Positions 9,878-39,127 of a DNA stretch of 64,000 nucleotides are shown here, piece by piece. The position numbers and the translations under genes were made by a program. Within the stretch, counting starts at the first letter, position 1. The number at the start of each line of letters is the position of its first letter. The notes beneath the pieces are model-generated. The model was not told the origin of the DNA, made no database searches, and saw nothing but the letters and a program-made list of their open reading frames with translations. This stretch comes from Candidatus Izemoplasma sp. (GTDB lineage: Bacteria; Bacillota_I; Bacilli_A; Izemoplasmatales; Izemoplasmataceae): the NCBI GenBank assembly GCA_007132465.1, contig SLOP01000012.1, positions 1-64,000 of the forward strand. Direction: 5' to 3'.

Positions 9878-10948
9878 ATGGCTTATAACATCCTTGCAAT
9901 TAACCCGGGTTCCACCAGCACGAAACTAGCCGTCTTTGAAAACAATCGGTGCGTTTTTAACGTTTCGGTTAAACACGATGCGAAGGAAATCGTCGCGTTT
10001 AAACGCATCATCGATCAATACGAATTTCGTGAAAAAGCCATTCTCGATAACCTAGAAAAATCAGGCATTGAGATTAAATCGTTGAACGCCGTGGTCGGCC
10101 GCGGCGGCATGCTTAAACCGATTGAGAGTGGCACGTACGCCGTCAACGAGGCCATGATTGAGTACATAAAAAAAGCCCCCCGTGGAGAACATGCCTCAAA
10201 CCTTGGATGCGTGCTTGCCAAAACCATTGGCGACCGTATCGGTGCGCCGAGTTTTATTGTCGATCCCGTGGCAGTTGATGAAATGGAAGACATTGCCCGC
10301 TACACTGGCATGCCAGAAATCAGACGCGACAGCTTGTTTCATGCCTTAAATCAAAAAGCCGTCGCACTCAAAGCCGCCGATGATCTCGGCAAATCGTACA
10401 CCGACCTAAACTTGATTATCGCTCACCTCGGCGGCGGCATCAGTGTGGGCGCACACCAAAAAGGGCGTGTGATTGACGTCAACAACGCCCTAGACGGGGA
10501 TGGACCAATGTCACCCGAGCGCAGCGGTTCAGTGCCGATGGGTCCGCTTTACAAGATGGTTTTTAGCGGGAAATACACGCTTGAAGAAATCAAGCGAAAA
10601 AACTACGGCCAAGGTGGGCTTGTGGCTTACCTTGGAACCAACGACGGACAAACCATCGAGCGTCGCATCAAATCAGGTGATGAGCACGCCAAGTTCATCT
10701 TCAGCGTCATGTGCTACCAAATCGCCAAAGAAATCGGGTCGTGTGCTGCAGTTCTCAAAGGTGATGTGGATGCGATTGTGCTGACCGGCGGTGTGGCCTA
10801 CGATAAGCTGGCTGTCGGGTTGATTAAAGAGCGCGTCGATTTCATCAGTCGTGTGCTTGTGTACCCAGGTGAAGACGAAATGGAAGCCCTCGCGCTTGGT
10901 GCCCTCCGTGTGCTTAAGGGCGATCAAACCGCGAAGGAATATGTGTAA
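9878..10948 (+). CDS. buk: Butyrate kinase
   Basis: Forms ATP and butyrate, or branched-chain fatty acids such as isovalerate, from the acyl phosphate. Member of the acetokinase/ASKHA fold; 356 residues is the usual length. The N-terminal phosphate loop is ILAINPGSTSTKLAVF, and IIAHLGGGISVGAH plus DGDGPMSPERSG mark the butyrate kinase branch over acetate kinase. ATG at 9878 follows TGGAGG. It is the first gene of a plus-strand group with ptb and a leucine-type dehydrogenase. The pairing with the dehydrogenase points to branched-chain substrates at least as much as butyrate. Confidence 0.95.
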   Translation: MAYNILAINPGSTSTKLAVFENNRCVFNVSVKHDAKEIVAFKRIIDQYEFREKAILDNLEKSGIEIKSLNAVVGRGGMLKPIESGTYAVNEAMIEYIKKAPRGEHASNLGCVLAKTIGDRIGAPSFIVDPVAVDEMEDIARYTGMPEIRRDSLFHALNQKAVALKAADDLGKSYTDLNLIIAHLGGGISVGAHQKGRVIDVNNALDGDGPMSPERSGSVPMGPLYKMVFSGKYTLEEIKRKNYGQGGLVAYLGTNDGQTIERRIKSGDEHAKFIFSVMCYQIAKEIGSCAAVLKGDVDAIVLTGGVAYDKLAVGLIKERVDFISRVLVYPGEDEMEALALGALRVLKGDQTAKEYV

Positions 10949-10964
10949 GGGAAGGGATGACACT

Positions 10965-11870
10965 GTGATTAAGAGCATGCAAGACATTGTAAACGAAGCG
11001 AAAACACGAACGAAAAAAACGTTAGTTGTCGCCGTGGCCAACGACCATCATGTGATGGAAGCAGTCGACATGGCCCGTAAAGAAGGTTTTATCGACGCGA
11101 TATTGGTCGGAAATCAAGTGGCGATTGAAGAAACCCTTGAGGATTTGTCCATCGACCAAAGCCACTACGACATCATGCATGTCGTCGACACCGTGCAAGC
11201 CTGTGAAGAAGCCGTTAAAGTAGTCAGTGCCAACGAAGGACATTTTCTGATGAAAGGCTATGTCGACACGGCCGTCATCTTGCGCGCCGCGCTCGACAAA
11301 GGTTATGGCTTGCGCACAAAGAACCGTTTGTCACATGTCAGCGTCCTTGAAATTCCGACGTATCACAAACTGCTCATAATGAGCGACGGCGCCATGAACA
11401 TCGATCCCGATGTCGATATCAAACAAGAAATTATTGAAAATGGCGTGAAAATCGCTCATGCGATCGGCATCGATAATCCCTCGGTGGGTTGCCTCGCCGC
11501 GGTTGAGAAAATCAACCCGAAAATGCAAGCCACCCTTGACGCTGAGGCGCTGATCAAACGCAATCAGCAAGGCGACATTAACGGCTGCACCATCGGCGGA
11601 CCGTTCGCCTTTGATAACGCGATTAACAAAGACGCTGCGGATCACAAAGGCATCACCGATCCGATGGCAGGCGACATTGATTTTGCGTTGATGCCGCAGA
11701 TTGAATCGGGTAACATATTTTACAAAGCGATGATGTTTCTCGGCAGCGCTAAAAGCGCCAGCGTCATCGCCGGCGCACAAAAACCCATCGTGTTGACAAG
11801 CCGCGCCGATTCAACGGAAAGTAAATTTTATTCGATCGCTCTGTCCGCGCTTGTGGCGGACACACAATAA
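10965..11870 (+). CDS. ptb: Phosphate butyryltransferase
   Basis: Exchanges CoA for phosphate on butyryl- or branched acyl-CoA to feed butyrate kinase. 301 residues, of the phosphate acetyl/butyryltransferase fold, with NDHHVMEAVDMARKEGFIDAILVG at the start of the domain, DGAMNIDPD in the middle and GSAKSASVIAGAQKPIVLTSRAD near the end, all typical of Ptb. The start is GTG 10965 with AAGGGA seven bases upstream; an in-frame ATG lies four codons later. The 16-base gap to buk shows co-transcription. The gene order buk-ptb is the reverse of the clostridial ptb-buk. Confidence 0.94.
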   Translation: MIKSMQDIVNEAKTRTKKTLVVAVANDHHVMEAVDMARKEGFIDAILVGNQVAIEETLEDLSIDQSHYDIMHVVDTVQACEEAVKVVSANEGHFLMKGYVDTAVILRAALDKGYGLRTKNRLSHVSVLEIPTYHKLLIMSDGAMNIDPDVDIKQEIIENGVKIAHAIGIDNPSVGCLAAVEKINPKMQATLDAEALIKRNQQGDINGCTIGGPFAFDNAINKDAADHKGITDPMAGDIDFALMPQIESGNIFYKAMMFLGSAKSASVIAGAQKPIVLTSRADSTESKFYSIALSALVADTQ

Positions 11871-11888
11871 AGGACAAAGGAGAATCCC

Positions 11889-13010
11889 ATGAAAAAGAAA
11901 AAAGAGGAGTACACGAACCAGGTGTTCGAGTACACCAACGAAGGTTTCGAGCAAGTCATCTATTTCCATAACAAAGAAACCGGCCTCAAAGGCATCACCT
12001 GCATCCATGATACACGACTCGGCCCCTCGTGTGGCGGCACTCGCTTCTACGATTACGCCAGTGAAGAGGAAGCCCTTTACGACGTGACTCGACTGGCGAA
12101 AGGCATGACCTATAAAAATGCCGCCGCAGGCCTCAACATCGGCGGCTGCAAAACCGTCATCATCGGCAACCCGAAGAAACTCAAAAACGAAGCGTTCATG
12201 CGTTCATATGGCCGCTACATCCAGAGCCTCGGTGGCCGCGTCTACACCGGTCAAGACATGAACATGACACTGCAAGATTGCGAATGGATGGACCTTGAGA
12301 CCGATTACGTCTCCGGCGTCGCCCGCAAAGGTGCTGGAAGCACCACCATCCTCACCGCCCGAGGAACGTATGTCGGCATGAAAGCCGCCGTCAAAGAGAA
12401 ACTCGGCCAAGACAACCTCGACGGACTCGTCATCGCCTTCCAAGGCGTCGGCGCCGTCGTTCGTGAAATGGTTCAGTACCTCAAAAAGCACAAAATCAAG
12501 AAAATCTACTTTACCGACGTCAACCCTGAGGCAGTTGAGCAGTTCCAAACCATGTACGAACTCGCCCGCTATGTTGAGCCTGATAAAATCTATGACATCA
12601 AAAGCGATGTTTTCAGTCCAAATGCCATCGGCGCTGTTATTAACGACGACACCATCGAGCGTCTTAACACCAAGGTTGTTGCCGGCGCTGCCAACAATGT
12701 CCTTAAAGAGCCAAAACATGGCGACATATTGCATGAAAAAGGGATTCTCTACGCCCCCGACTTCGTCATTAACGCCGGTGGGGTCATCAACGTTTACCAC
12801 GAAATGGTCGGCTACAACGAGCAAAGCGCTATTCAAACCACGGATGCCATCTATGACCGCCTGACCGATATTTTCACCATCGCACGCGATGAAGGCATCC
12901 CGACCTACAAAGCCGCAGACATTCTTGCTGAGCGTCGCATTGAAAAAATCATGAGAATTCACCAAGATGACGTGAAACGTCGCACATTCTTCCAGTGGAA
13001 CATCGAATAA
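11889..13010 (+). CDS. bcd: Leucine/valine/phenylalanine-type amino acid dehydrogenase
   Basis: NAD-dependent oxidative deamination of branched-chain or related amino acids to 2-oxo acids. 373 residues. The catalytic domain shows GLKGITCIHDTRLGPSCGGTRF and LAKGMTYKNAAAGLNIGGCKTV, where the Lys in KGMTYK is the expected substrate/catalytic Lys and the Gly-rich turn has Cys in place of the commoner Gly. The Rossmann segment is IAFQGVGAVV followed by an Asp at the strand end (FTDVNPEA), which favours NAD. ATG follows AAAGGAG. Placed after buk-ptb, it resembles the Bacillus bkd arrangement (ptb-bcd-buk), but no branched-chain oxo-acid dehydrogenase is present in this window. Exact substrate is undetermined. 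Confidence 0.9.
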   Translation: MKKKKEEYTNQVFEYTNEGFEQVIYFHNKETGLKGITCIHDTRLGPSCGGTRFYDYASEEEALYDVTRLAKGMTYKNAAAGLNIGGCKTVIIGNPKKLKNEAFMRSYGRYIQSLGGRVYTGQDMNMTLQDCEWMDLETDYVSGVARKGAGSTTILTARGTYVGMKAAVKEKLGQDNLDGLVIAFQGVGAVVREMVQYLKKHKIKKIYFTDVNPEAVEQFQTMYELARYVEPDKIYDIKSDVFSPNAIGAVINDDTIERLNTKVVAGAANNVLKEPKHGDILHEKGILYAPDFVINAGGVINVYHEMVGYNEQSAIQTTDAIYDRLTDIFTIARDEGIPTYKAADILAERRIEKIMRIHQDDVKRRTFFQWNIE

Positions 13011-13034
13011 AAAAGCAGTATCACTGCTTTTTTA
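13010..13034 (+). terminator. Intrinsic terminator of buk-ptb-bcd
   Basis: Stem AAAAAGCAGT / ACTGCTTTTT with a three-base loop, overlapping the stop region of the dehydrogenase gene. It separates the transcript from pckA, although read-through is possible. Confidence 0.85.
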
Positions 13035-13053
13035 TCGCACGAAAGGAGATACC

Positions 13054-14676
13054 ATGGCAACCAAAAGTTTTTTAGCACGATCAGAAATCGGCACCAAAAA
13101 CCCGAAACTCTTTAACCCTATCCGCACCACCATCGAAACCGCCTACTACCGCAACAACGTCATCCCAGTGACCAGCCTCGAAGAGGCCTATCACCTCGCG
13201 AAAAATTCTCCGGGCACCATCATCACCGACATGCCCGTTCACGAACCCGAAGCGCAGGGATTACCCTCGGATGCCAAGGTGCTAATATTCAACGACGGCC
13301 GCATCACCGGCCGCCAAGCGCAATCGCGTCGGCTTGTCGATGACAGCAACCGTGACGACTACGCGAAAATGCTGCGCGAAGCCGTCTACGAATCACGCGA
13401 CAAGACGATGTATCATGCCACGGCTATCATTGGCCTTCACGAAGATTTCACCGTCAAAGCCCACCTGTTGATTCCTGAGGGCTTCGAAAACACCTTGTAC
13501 TCCTGGCTGCTCAACTTCCAAATCTACACCGATGAGGTCAAGGCCATGTACGCCAACTCACGTGTCTTTGACGAAGGTGACATCCTGCTTTATTCCGACC
13601 CTGATTTATTCATTGACAGCTTTGATGATGGTCTGGCCCTATTCGATCGTGAACACAACGTCGGTGTGCTGCTTGGCATGCGCTACTTCGGTGAACACAA
13701 AAAAGGCTCGCTCACGATGGCGTGGTCGATTGCGCAACGCAACGGCTTCACGCCTTGTCACGGAGGACAAAAGCGCTTTGTTCGTCATCATGGCGACTCG
13801 TTTGTTTTAAGTGTCTTTGGGCTTTCTGGTTCAGGAAAAAGCACCATCACGCATTCGCGTCATGATGAAAAATACGACATCACCGTCTTGCATGACGATG
13901 CCTTCGTCATTGCCGATAAGGACACCTCGAGCGTCTCGCTTGAGCCTGCCTACTTCGATAAGGTTCAAGATTATCCGACCGATTCAGCCGACAACACGTT
14001 CCTCCTCACCATCCAAAACGTCGGCGCGACCCGCGACGAGAACGGCCTCATCGTCCCTGTCACCGAAGACATTCGCAACGGCAACGGCCGTGCGGTGAAA
14101 TCGAAACTGTGGGCACCTAATCGCCTTTATAAGTTCGAAGATAAAACCAACGCGATTATATGGATCATGAAAGATGAAACGTTGCCTCCCATGCTGAAAA
14201 TCAACTCGGCTACGCTCGCTTCTACCCTTGGCGCCACCTTGGCAACCAAGCGCACCAGCGCCGAACACGGTGCCGACCCGAACAAACTTGCGATGGTTCC
14301 CTATGCCAACCCCTTCCGTCTCTATCCACTGTCGCATGACTACACCAACTTTAAAGCACTCTTTGAGAATCACGACGTGTCATGCTATGTCATCAACACC
14401 GGGCATTTCGGTGAGAAAAAAATCACGCCTGCCGTCACGCTCGGCGCGATTGAAGGCATCGTTGAAAACACCAACACCTATAACCCTTTCACACCACTTA
14501 AAGACGTTGAATACGCCGTTATCGATGGCTATGAACCCGACTTCAACGACGCGGCTTACGTGGACCGTTTTGTCAAGCGCATGCAAGGACGCATCGAGTA
14601 CCTCACTAACCTCGACGCCCGCGACGCGCTTCCCGACGAAGCCAAACAAGCCATTGCCACACGACTCAAGCCATAA
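13054..14676 (+). CDS. pckA: Divergent ATP-type phosphoenolpyruvate carboxykinase
   Basis: Expected to interconvert oxaloacetate + ATP and PEP + CO2 + ADP. 540 residues, aligning by motif with ATP-type PEPCK: DGRITGR (substrate Arg), YFGEHKKGS (metal-binding Lys), a conserved His in TPCHGG, the P-loop GLSGSGKST (about 259-267) and the DD pair of HDDAFVI. Several usual signatures are altered: the KKGMFSMMNY block reads KKGSLTMAWS, and the Arg of the PVSRL motif appears to be Lys (MLKINSATLA). These differences place it in a divergent branch; activity is likely but not certain. ATG follows AAAGGAG. It sits between the amino acid dehydrogenase and an aminotransferase, consistent with a 4-carbon acid step of amino acid catabolism. 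Confidence 0.85.
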   Translation: MATKSFLARSEIGTKNPKLFNPIRTTIETAYYRNNVIPVTSLEEAYHLAKNSPGTIITDMPVHEPEAQGLPSDAKVLIFNDGRITGRQAQSRRLVDDSNRDDYAKMLREAVYESRDKTMYHATAIIGLHEDFTVKAHLLIPEGFENTLYSWLLNFQIYTDEVKAMYANSRVFDEGDILLYSDPDLFIDSFDDGLALFDREHNVGVLLGMRYFGEHKKGSLTMAWSIAQRNGFTPCHGGQKRFVRHHGDSFVLSVFGLSGSGKSTITHSRHDEKYDITVLHDDAFVIADKDTSSVSLEPAYFDKVQDYPTDSADNTFLLTIQNVGATRDENGLIVPVTEDIRNGNGRAVKSKLWAPNRLYKFEDKTNAIIWIMKDETLPPMLKINSATLASTLGATLATKRTSAEHGADPNKLAMVPYANPFRLYPLSHDYTNFKALFENHDVSCYVINTGHFGEKKITPAVTLGAIEGIVENTNTYNPFTPLKDVEYAVIDGYEPDFNDAAYVDRFVKRMQGRIEYLTNLDARDALPDEAKQAIATRLKP

Positions 14677-14679
14677 CCC

Positions 14680-14695
14680 GGGGTGATCCGCCATT
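14680..14695 (+). promoter_or_regulatory. Extended Shine-Dalgarno and apparent ATT start codon
   Basis: GGGGTGATCC at 14680-14689 pairs with nine of ten bases of the 16S tail (consensus GAGGTGATCC). It is followed by GCC and ATT at 14693. The frame has a TGA at 14684-14686 and no ATG, GTG, CTG or TTG until 14846, so ATT is the only start that fits the ribosome site and the protein's N terminus. Confidence 0.75.
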
Positions 14696-15964
14696 AAACT
14701 ATTCGTCAGCGAACTCGTACACGACAAAGAAATCATCGACACCGTCTTTGAAGCCAGCAAAGGCGCCATCGACGCCGCCCAGAAGTACGGCATTGAAAAC
14801 GTCGTCAACGGCGCCTTTGGCACCTATTTCGACGAGACCGGTAAATTGCTTACCTTCGACACCGTCTATCGCGCCTTCGACCGCGTCGATGACATCCAAA
14901 AAGCCAAATACGCCTCAAGCATCATGGGCCCACCCGAGTTTCAAGCCGCCGTCAAATCGTGGCTCTTTGAAAGCGCAGGCCTTGATGTTGACTGCGACAT
15001 CATCGCTACCCCAGGAGGCACCGGTGCTTTATCAAGCACCATTAAAAACACCCTCAAACACGGCGAAGCCGTCGTGTATCCTGACATCGGTTGGGGTCCT
15101 TACATCACCATCGCCAAAGAAGCCGGCGTGATGATTGAACCCTACACCTTGTTCGACGACAACCGATTCAACGTCGACTCATTCCGTGAGACATGTGAAA
15201 AAGTCATGCGTGACCAAGGTCGTGTGCTTGCGGTTATCAACGACCCATGCCAAAACCCCACCGGCTACACCATGAAGCTCGACGAATGGGAAAAAGTCAT
15301 TGAGGTTGTCAACGAACTCTCGGAAAAAGGCCCATTTATTTTGCTTCAAGACATTGCCTACGTCGACTTCACTACCCAAGGCGAAGCCTACAAGCGAAGT
15401 TTCTCGCGTTACGTGGGGCTTCCTGACAATGTGCTCATCATCATCGCCTTCAGCGGCTCTAAAACGTTAACCGCCTACGGCATGCGTGTGGGCGCTCAAG
15501 TCTTGATTTCAAGCAACGACGAGCAGCGAACGAAAATGAAACACGCTTGTGGCAACACCGCCCGTGGCGTCTGGTCCACCGTCAACAACGGTGCGATGCG
15601 TTTGTTCGCCGACATCGCACTTGATGAAAAACTTAAGGAAGCCTACATGCTGGAAAAACAAGGCTTTGTTCATTTGTTGAAAGAACGAGCGGACATCTTC
15701 GTGCGAGAAGCTGAGGAAGTCAACCTACCGATTTATCCTTACGAAGAAGGCTTCTTCATCACCTTGAAAATTGACGATCAAATCGTCAAAAACGAACTGC
15801 ATCTTAAACTGAAAACGTTGAACATCTTCTTCGTCAACGTCTACGGTGGTCTGCGTGTCGCCATCTGCTCAATTCCCATCAACAAAGTGAAAGGCCTCGC
15901 CAAGCGCGTGAAAGATGCCTATGACGATGTCATGCAAACCCACGACGAGAACGACGAAACATAA
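14693..15964 (+). CDS. Class I/II aminotransferase (aspartate/aromatic type)
   Basis: PLP-dependent transaminase of fold type I. Counting from the ATT at 14693 it has 423 residues, the normal length; starting at the first conventional codon (TTG 14846) would remove 51 residues that read as a regular N-terminal helix and strand. IIATPGGTGALSSTI (about 104-118) is the cofactor-phosphate segment of the AspC/TyrB branch, NDPCQNPTGYTM the carboxylate-binding segment, and AFSGSKTLTAYGMRVGAQ holds the PLP Lys. The exact donor is unknown; aspartate or aromatic amino acids are plausible given tnaA, the dehydrogenase and pckA upstream. It begins 16 bases after pckA, so it is probably on the same transcript. 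Confidence 0.88.
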   Translation: MKLFVSELVHDKEIIDTVFEASKGAIDAAQKYGIENVVNGAFGTYFDETGKLLTFDTVYRAFDRVDDIQKAKYASSIMGPPEFQAAVKSWLFESAGLDVDCDIIATPGGTGALSSTIKNTLKHGEAVVYPDIGWGPYITIAKEAGVMIEPYTLFDDNRFNVDSFRETCEKVMRDQGRVLAVINDPCQNPTGYTMKLDEWEKVIEVVNELSEKGPFILLQDIAYVDFTTQGEAYKRSFSRYVGLPDNVLIIIAFSGSKTLTAYGMRVGAQVLISSNDEQRTKMKHACGNTARGVWSTVNNGAMRLFADIALDEKLKEAYMLEKQGFVHLLKERADIFVREAEEVNLPIYPYEEGFFITLKIDDQIVKNELHLKLKTLNIFFVNVYGGLRVAICSIPINKVKGLAKRVKDAYDDVMQTHDENDET

Positions 15965-15965
15965 A

Positions 15966-15988
15966 AACATCCTCCGGGATGTTTTTTT
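15966..15988 (+). terminator. Intrinsic terminator of pckA-aminotransferase
   Basis: Stem ACATCC / GGATGT with loop TCCG and seven T residues, just after the aminotransferase stop. Confidence 0.88.
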
Positions 15989-16021
15989 AAAAAACAACGC
16001 ACGTCGCTAGGACGTGCGTTG
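15989..16021 (-). terminator. Intrinsic terminator of the HTH/DUF2975 genes
   Basis: Eleven-base stem CAACGCACGTC / GACGTGCGTTG with loop GCTAG that contains the stop of the HTH gene, followed on the minus strand by TTTTTT. Confidence 0.9.
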
Positions 16022-38420: not shown

Positions 38421-39127
38421 ACAACGTTATGGTAGATTTTTTGAACATCATCCACGTCATTAATCATCGTCATAAACTTATCAAAAAGCATCCTGGCATC
38501 CTCATCAAGCACTACCTTCTCATGCGGATACCAACCCGCTTCAGCGTTCTCAATCACAGCGCCTTTAAGGGATTCTAGCGCAGATTCAACCTTATCCAAG
38601 CTAAACCCGTCGGCGGTGATGTGCACGCCGTCGTCGTCCGCTTCAATGTCGATAACGTTAAGGTCGGTTTTAAGCAAATGCTCAAGTACCGCTTCGTCAT
38701 CAACGTCCGTGACATGAATCAACGAAAGATGTTCAAACATGTGTGTGACCGAACCACTCACACCCATTTTTGAGCCAACTTTAGTAAAACATGCGCGCAC
38801 TTCGCTGACCGTGCGGTTGACGTTATCGGTGAGCGTGTCAATGATAAAAGCGCTACCTGAGGGTCCAAAACCTTCGTAGCGTTCATCGGTGTAGTTCTCA
38901 CCGCCAGCACCAGCGGCTTTGTCGATGTTGCGGTTGATGACATCCATCGGCACTTGTTCCTTTTTTGCGCGTTCAATTAAACGCTTAAGCGCCATGTTTG
39001 CCTCGGGATTGACACCGCGGTTGCGTGCGCAGACGTAGATTTCTTTGCCAAACCGCGAATACAACTTTGTTTTTTGCAAACCCGTTTTCATCATCGAATG
39101 CTTGCGAACTTCAAACTTTCTTCCCAT
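38414..39127 (-). CDS. YebC/PmpR/TACO1-family protein
   Basis: 237 residues of the YebC family, which includes DNA-binding regulators and factors that help ribosomes through proline stretches. Motifs: MGRKFEVRKHSMMKTGLQKTKLYSRFGKEIYVCAR at the N terminus, NPEANMALKRLIERAKKEQVPMDVINRNIDKA, and GFGPSGSAFIIDTLTDNVNRTVSEVR. The second-line N terminus without the AGHSKW motif points to the YeeN subfamily. ATG 39127 is preferred because GGTGAG precedes it; an upstream ATG-less extension is not supported. The distal end overlaps one copy of an 18-base repeat. Confidence 0.93.
   Translation of the reverse strand: MGRKFEVRKHSMMKTGLQKTKLYSRFGKEIYVCARNRGVNPEANMALKRLIERAKKEQVPMDVINRNIDKAAGAGGENYTDERYEGFGPSGSAFIIDTLTDNVNRTVSEVRACFTKVGSKMGVSGSVTHMFEHLSLIHVTDVDDEAVLEHLLKTDLNVIDIEADDDGVHITADGFSLDKVESALESLKGAVIENAEAGWYPHEKVVLDEDARMLFDKFMTMINDVDDVQKIYHNVVE

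Follow-up and report, generated by a model that had tools for sequence, protein, structure and literature searches.

An apparent ATT start codon behind an unusually long Shine-Dalgarno sequence in an aminotransferase gene of Candidatus Izemoplasma sp.

The odd start codon of infC, the gene for initiation factor IF3, is autoregulatory, and the AUU start of Escherichia coli pcnB reportedly limits translation. The class I/II aminotransferase described here shares its AUU with pcnB, in a different gene and a different phylum, and is a fresh but modest instance of a phenomenon already known in bacteria. In Staphylococcus aureus grown in poor medium, reporters carrying the AUU start of cvfC1 and the AUA starts of ccpN and citZ were expressed at about 10% of the level obtained with AUG, and the authors describe extended Shine-Dalgarno motifs in these mRNAs (PMC13009471). 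Like cvfC1 and ccpN, the aminotransferase has a weak start codon together with a Shine-Dalgarno helix that is extended and lies close to the start, but cvfC1 is conserved within staphylococci and the ccpN start is shared with B. subtilis, whereas we found the aminotransferase ATT in one species (PMC13009471). The citZ start, restricted to the S. aureus NCTC 8325 lineage, is likewise a lineage-restricted non-canonical start of a metabolic enzyme; it differs in being AUA and in having been found by ribosome profiling and tested with reporters, whereas the aminotransferase AUU is known from sequence alone (PMC13009471). The aminotransferase fits this pattern: its start codon is weak, its Shine-Dalgarno helix is long and reaches close to the start, its leader is unstructured and an upstream stop lies nearby.

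The gene lies in the window, the whole stretch of 64,000 nucleotides that was analyzed, which corresponds to contig C2 in a source assembly of 1.43 Mb (45 contigs, 99.14% complete); the named relatives recovered were ‘Candidatus Izimaplasma’ metagenome assemblies. It occupies positions 14693-15964 of the forward strand and encodes 423 amino acids plus a stop codon. Its product matches Pfam PF00155 with 112.9 bits (cut-off 19.7) over residues 41-405, placing it in the family across the catalytic domain, and the solved structures nearest in sequence are 4emy and 3rq1. The reading frame is bounded upstream by a TGA at 14684-14686, followed by TCC GCC and the ATT at 14693-14695, and continues with AAA CTA TTC. 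Read directly, the first ATG, GTG, CTG or TTG after the TGA is the TTG at 14846, 51 codons past the ATT, just as the preliminary description had stated.

To locate the start, we compared the gene with its orthologues. An aminotransferase match was present in 44 of 49 genomes of the family, or 43 without our own, and 40 of these had a readable N-terminus; the orthologues left out were G024, cut by a contig end, and G034 and G068, which are weak matches with approximately 22-25% identity. All 40 begin at the position aligned to the ATT or one codon downstream, 39 with ATG and one, G005, with TTG, which bears out the start position proposed earlier. The three same-genus relatives that carry the gene all use ATG; the fourth, G002 (87% complete), had no match. 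Residues 2-52 are identical to those three relatives at 42 to 45 of 51 positions, and the synonymous and nonsynonymous differences across the corresponding codons number 27/6, 29/8 and 23/9. Since the differences are mostly synonymous, codons 2-52 must be translated; judged by these counts, the first 51 codons are under purifying selection, in keeping with the earlier reading of them as a regular N-terminus of the family. One could argue that translation truly begins at 14846, where a TTG offers the frame its first canonical start, and that the 51 codons upstream are untranslated, but none of the 40 readable relatives starts at or near that position. Together with the conservation of codons 2-52, the orthologue starts contradict such a start, which we regard as extremely improbable and reject. 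No canonical start thus explains the conserved N-terminus, and translation of the aminotransferase starts at 14693, where the codon is ATT.

Conservation of the AUU itself, a supporting rather than a defining feature of such starts, was not seen in any of the 40 relatives, and a conserved regulatory role is therefore not supported. The aminotransferase matches in two relatives (G013:C2:179250-180473 and G025:C1:11371-12594) each contain one in-frame stop, TAA and TAG, respectively. Four small genomes of genus g5 in the family (G008, G023, G029 and G035) had no match to the aminotransferase.

The ATT is preceded, at a proper distance, by an extended Shine-Dalgarno sequence, GGGGTGATCC (14680-14689, forward strand), separated from it by a spacer of three bases (GCC). 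The in-frame TGA lies within this sequence, which is nothing odd, because several relatives also carry one there. Our search of the source assembly for 16S rRNA gave no match, and we therefore used the 16S tail of family genomes, GGATCACCTCCTTTCT, which was identical in all six genomes with a 16S match among 13 searched. A continuous helix of ten base pairs, one of them G-U and the other nine Watson-Crick, joins GGGGTGATCC to this tail, with an energy of -19.1 kcal/mol. None of 353 comparison starts of this genome pairs as strongly with the full tail (the next reaches -18.8), and ten contiguous pairs occur in eight of the 353, although the site had been picked beforehand as unusual, so that its rank at the top of the 354 sampled starts is not an unbiased test. 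The near-perfect ribosome binding site noted in the preliminary description is, with the full tail, indeed exceptional. The rank falls with shorter tails, with 15 of the 353 genes as strong for a 13-base tail and 179 for the 8-base core, where the site is average; the excess pairing therefore sits in the start-proximal GATCC extension. Among 38 orthologues, our own included, the site was the strongest with a 17-base tail (-18.9, against -11.3, -13.4 and -13.1 in the same genus). The G+C content of the window (0.51, versus 0.39-0.41 for the same-genus loci) may account for part of this difference from the relatives, whereas it has no bearing on how the site ranks in its own genome. We also sought an inhibitory structure in the leader and found none, the leader folding no better than its shuffles (z of 0.94 and 1.97).

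Is the T at 14695 real? It was read in one assembly of the species, and the main alternative is an error in the consensus, or the entry into it of a base from a minority strain, which would have turned a true ATG into ATT and would make the gene ordinary. All 40 readable relatives carry G as the last base of the start codon, the window comes from an assembly of 45 contigs with unknown read depth, and AUG-to-AUU switches are intrinsically very rare, with one in 61,358 in a survey of close relatives (PMC5622118). Yet that rate was obtained from close genomes, and given the long branch here (0.26 changes per column), one such switch is plausible. Several observations also speak against an error. 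The 464,000 bases that we surveyed contain no letters other than A, C, G and T, and each of ten neighboring genes with a match in same-genus loci aligns to it in one unbroken stretch, free of frame breaks. A clear loss of the start is seen elsewhere in the sample only in infC, whose ATT is ancestral. Moreover, an error would have no reason to hit the very start that, of all those sampled, pairs most strongly with the full 16S tail, or to yield one of the functional ATH codons. A search of viral_contigs for the site, leaving position 14695 free to be any base, gave no matches. Overall, we consider an error unlikely, though far from negligible, and the ATT quite likely to be a real, lineage-specific change from ATG. 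A real ATT that is private to one species might instead mark an early step of gene decay. However, the 423-residue frame is intact, the ribosome binding site is strong, and the branch shows no clear acceleration (0.26 versus 0.23 in its sister). Decay, which we judge very improbable, was rejected on the latter ground.

Turning to the rest of the genome, we found that infC, cited in the preliminary description as the known ATT-start case, uses ATT here as well, beginning GGAGGTGACACGC-ATT-AAC (G000:C39, ATT at 38828-38830). Matches to infC were obtained in 40 genomes, and we examined 30 loci of the family and order, our own included: by our reading, 22 start with ATT, three with ATA, one with ATC and four with ATT or ATC, and none of the 30 has a canonical start at that Shine-Dalgarno spacing, and the automatic annotation of infC in the family may therefore be wrong. 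Like infC in this genome and, by our reading, in all 30 loci examined, the aminotransferase has an AUH codon preceded by a long Shine-Dalgarno sequence; unlike the infC start, which is conserved, its ATT is private to one species.

We then assessed how widely such starts are used, combining a crude start survey with pattern searches. The survey covered 464,000 bases (32% of the genome) and 354 chosen genes, and a non-canonical start was clearly required only in infC (margin 12.4) and in the aminotransferase, which has no canonical candidate. A further 20 genes preferred a non-canonical codon, with margins of at most 5.7 and a canonical alternative in each, and were treated as scoring noise. 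Genome-wide, GAGGTG(5-8)ATT had 34 matches and GGGGTG(5-8)ATT had 26, and we looked at all of these loci. AGGAGG(6-10)ATH had 71 matches, of which 53 were scanned. Across the three patterns, infC and the aminotransferase were the only genes to stand out. The remaining 18 AGGAGG matches were set aside for an ATG inside the match, apart from the infC site, one GAGGTG-pattern site already examined, and C39:2329 and C43:15161, which fall in stretches covered by the start survey. Wider use of ATT or ATH starts in this genome was thus rejected, as the patterns and the survey point to these two genes only.

Immediately upstream lies a pckA-like gene of the ATP-type PEP carboxykinase family (13054-14676, forward strand), whose stop codon is 16 bases 5′ of the aminotransferase ATT. 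The adjacency of the two genes is conserved in all three same-genus relatives that have the region. The pckA-like protein matches PF01293 with just 65.8 bits, far under the NCBIfam cut-offs; from its sequence, it appears to be a divergent PEP carboxykinase branch. Further 5′ are genes for an amino-acid dehydrogenase, a phosphate acetyl/butyryl transferase and a member of the acetate kinase family. These neighbors suggest that the cluster serves amino-acid fermentation. The same-genus relatives keep the order acetate-kinase-like, PTA/PTB-like, amino-acid dehydrogenase, pckA-like and aminotransferase, corresponding to 9971-15964 in the window.

On the 3′ side of the aminotransferase, a terminator-like hairpin with an A-run and a T-run can be read from the sequence (15963-15989, forward strand). 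The promoter and terminator scan, which fell below its own shuffles and was uninformative, reports a stem at 15963-15986 on the minus strand only. Another hairpin with an A-run and a T-run lies in the gap between the dehydrogenase and pckA-like genes (13009-13034); it looks terminator-like by eye and is absent from the terminator scan. The pckA-like gene and the aminotransferase may form a separate or attenuated unit.

We regard as likely an overall account in which an ATT start at 14693, derived from ATG within the lineage, leaves initiation lowered but workable. An ancestral ATG would have changed to ATT in the lineage of this species. Pairing of the initiator tRNA with AUU, a weak match in the P site, would be imperfect, and initiation would therefore fall, probably reaching about one tenth of what AUG gives. 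Two things would keep initiation workable: the unusually long start-proximal Shine-Dalgarno helix, which would anchor the 30S subunit, and the end of pckA translation just 16 bases upstream, which may allow coupling. The factor discriminating against the aminotransferase ATT would be IF3, whose own gene is ATT-started here. The outcome is probably a low but tolerated production of the aminotransferase. We infer its expression level, its reduced synthesis relative to pckA, its sensitivity to IF3 and its coupling to pckA. That ATT starts limit expression, as had been claimed at the outset, agrees with the AUU and AUA starts of S. aureus, which give about 10% as much product as AUG (PMC13009471). 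Suboptimal GUG and UUG starts tend toward compensation by stronger Shine-Dalgarno sequences, with the caveat, stated in the same survey, that switches of both elements together were too rare for a firm conclusion (PMC5622118).

A more far-reaching interpretation, which we consider distinctly improbable, is that the aminotransferase is a second IF3-responsive gene beside infC, in which AUU and a strengthened Shine-Dalgarno sequence would tie an enzyme of amino-acid fermentation to the translation-initiation capacity of the cell, uncoupled from pckA output. For annotation, gene-calling programs that reject ATT as a start would shorten the aminotransferase by 51 residues (calling the TTG at 14846 leaves 372 amino acids), and infC is likewise prone to miscalling throughout the family. 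If the base is real, this branch, whose sisters start with ATG, would combine a natural ATG-to-ATT switch with an apparent strengthening of the Shine-Dalgarno sequence, and would thus offer a clean case for testing compensation between the start codon and the Shine-Dalgarno sequence.
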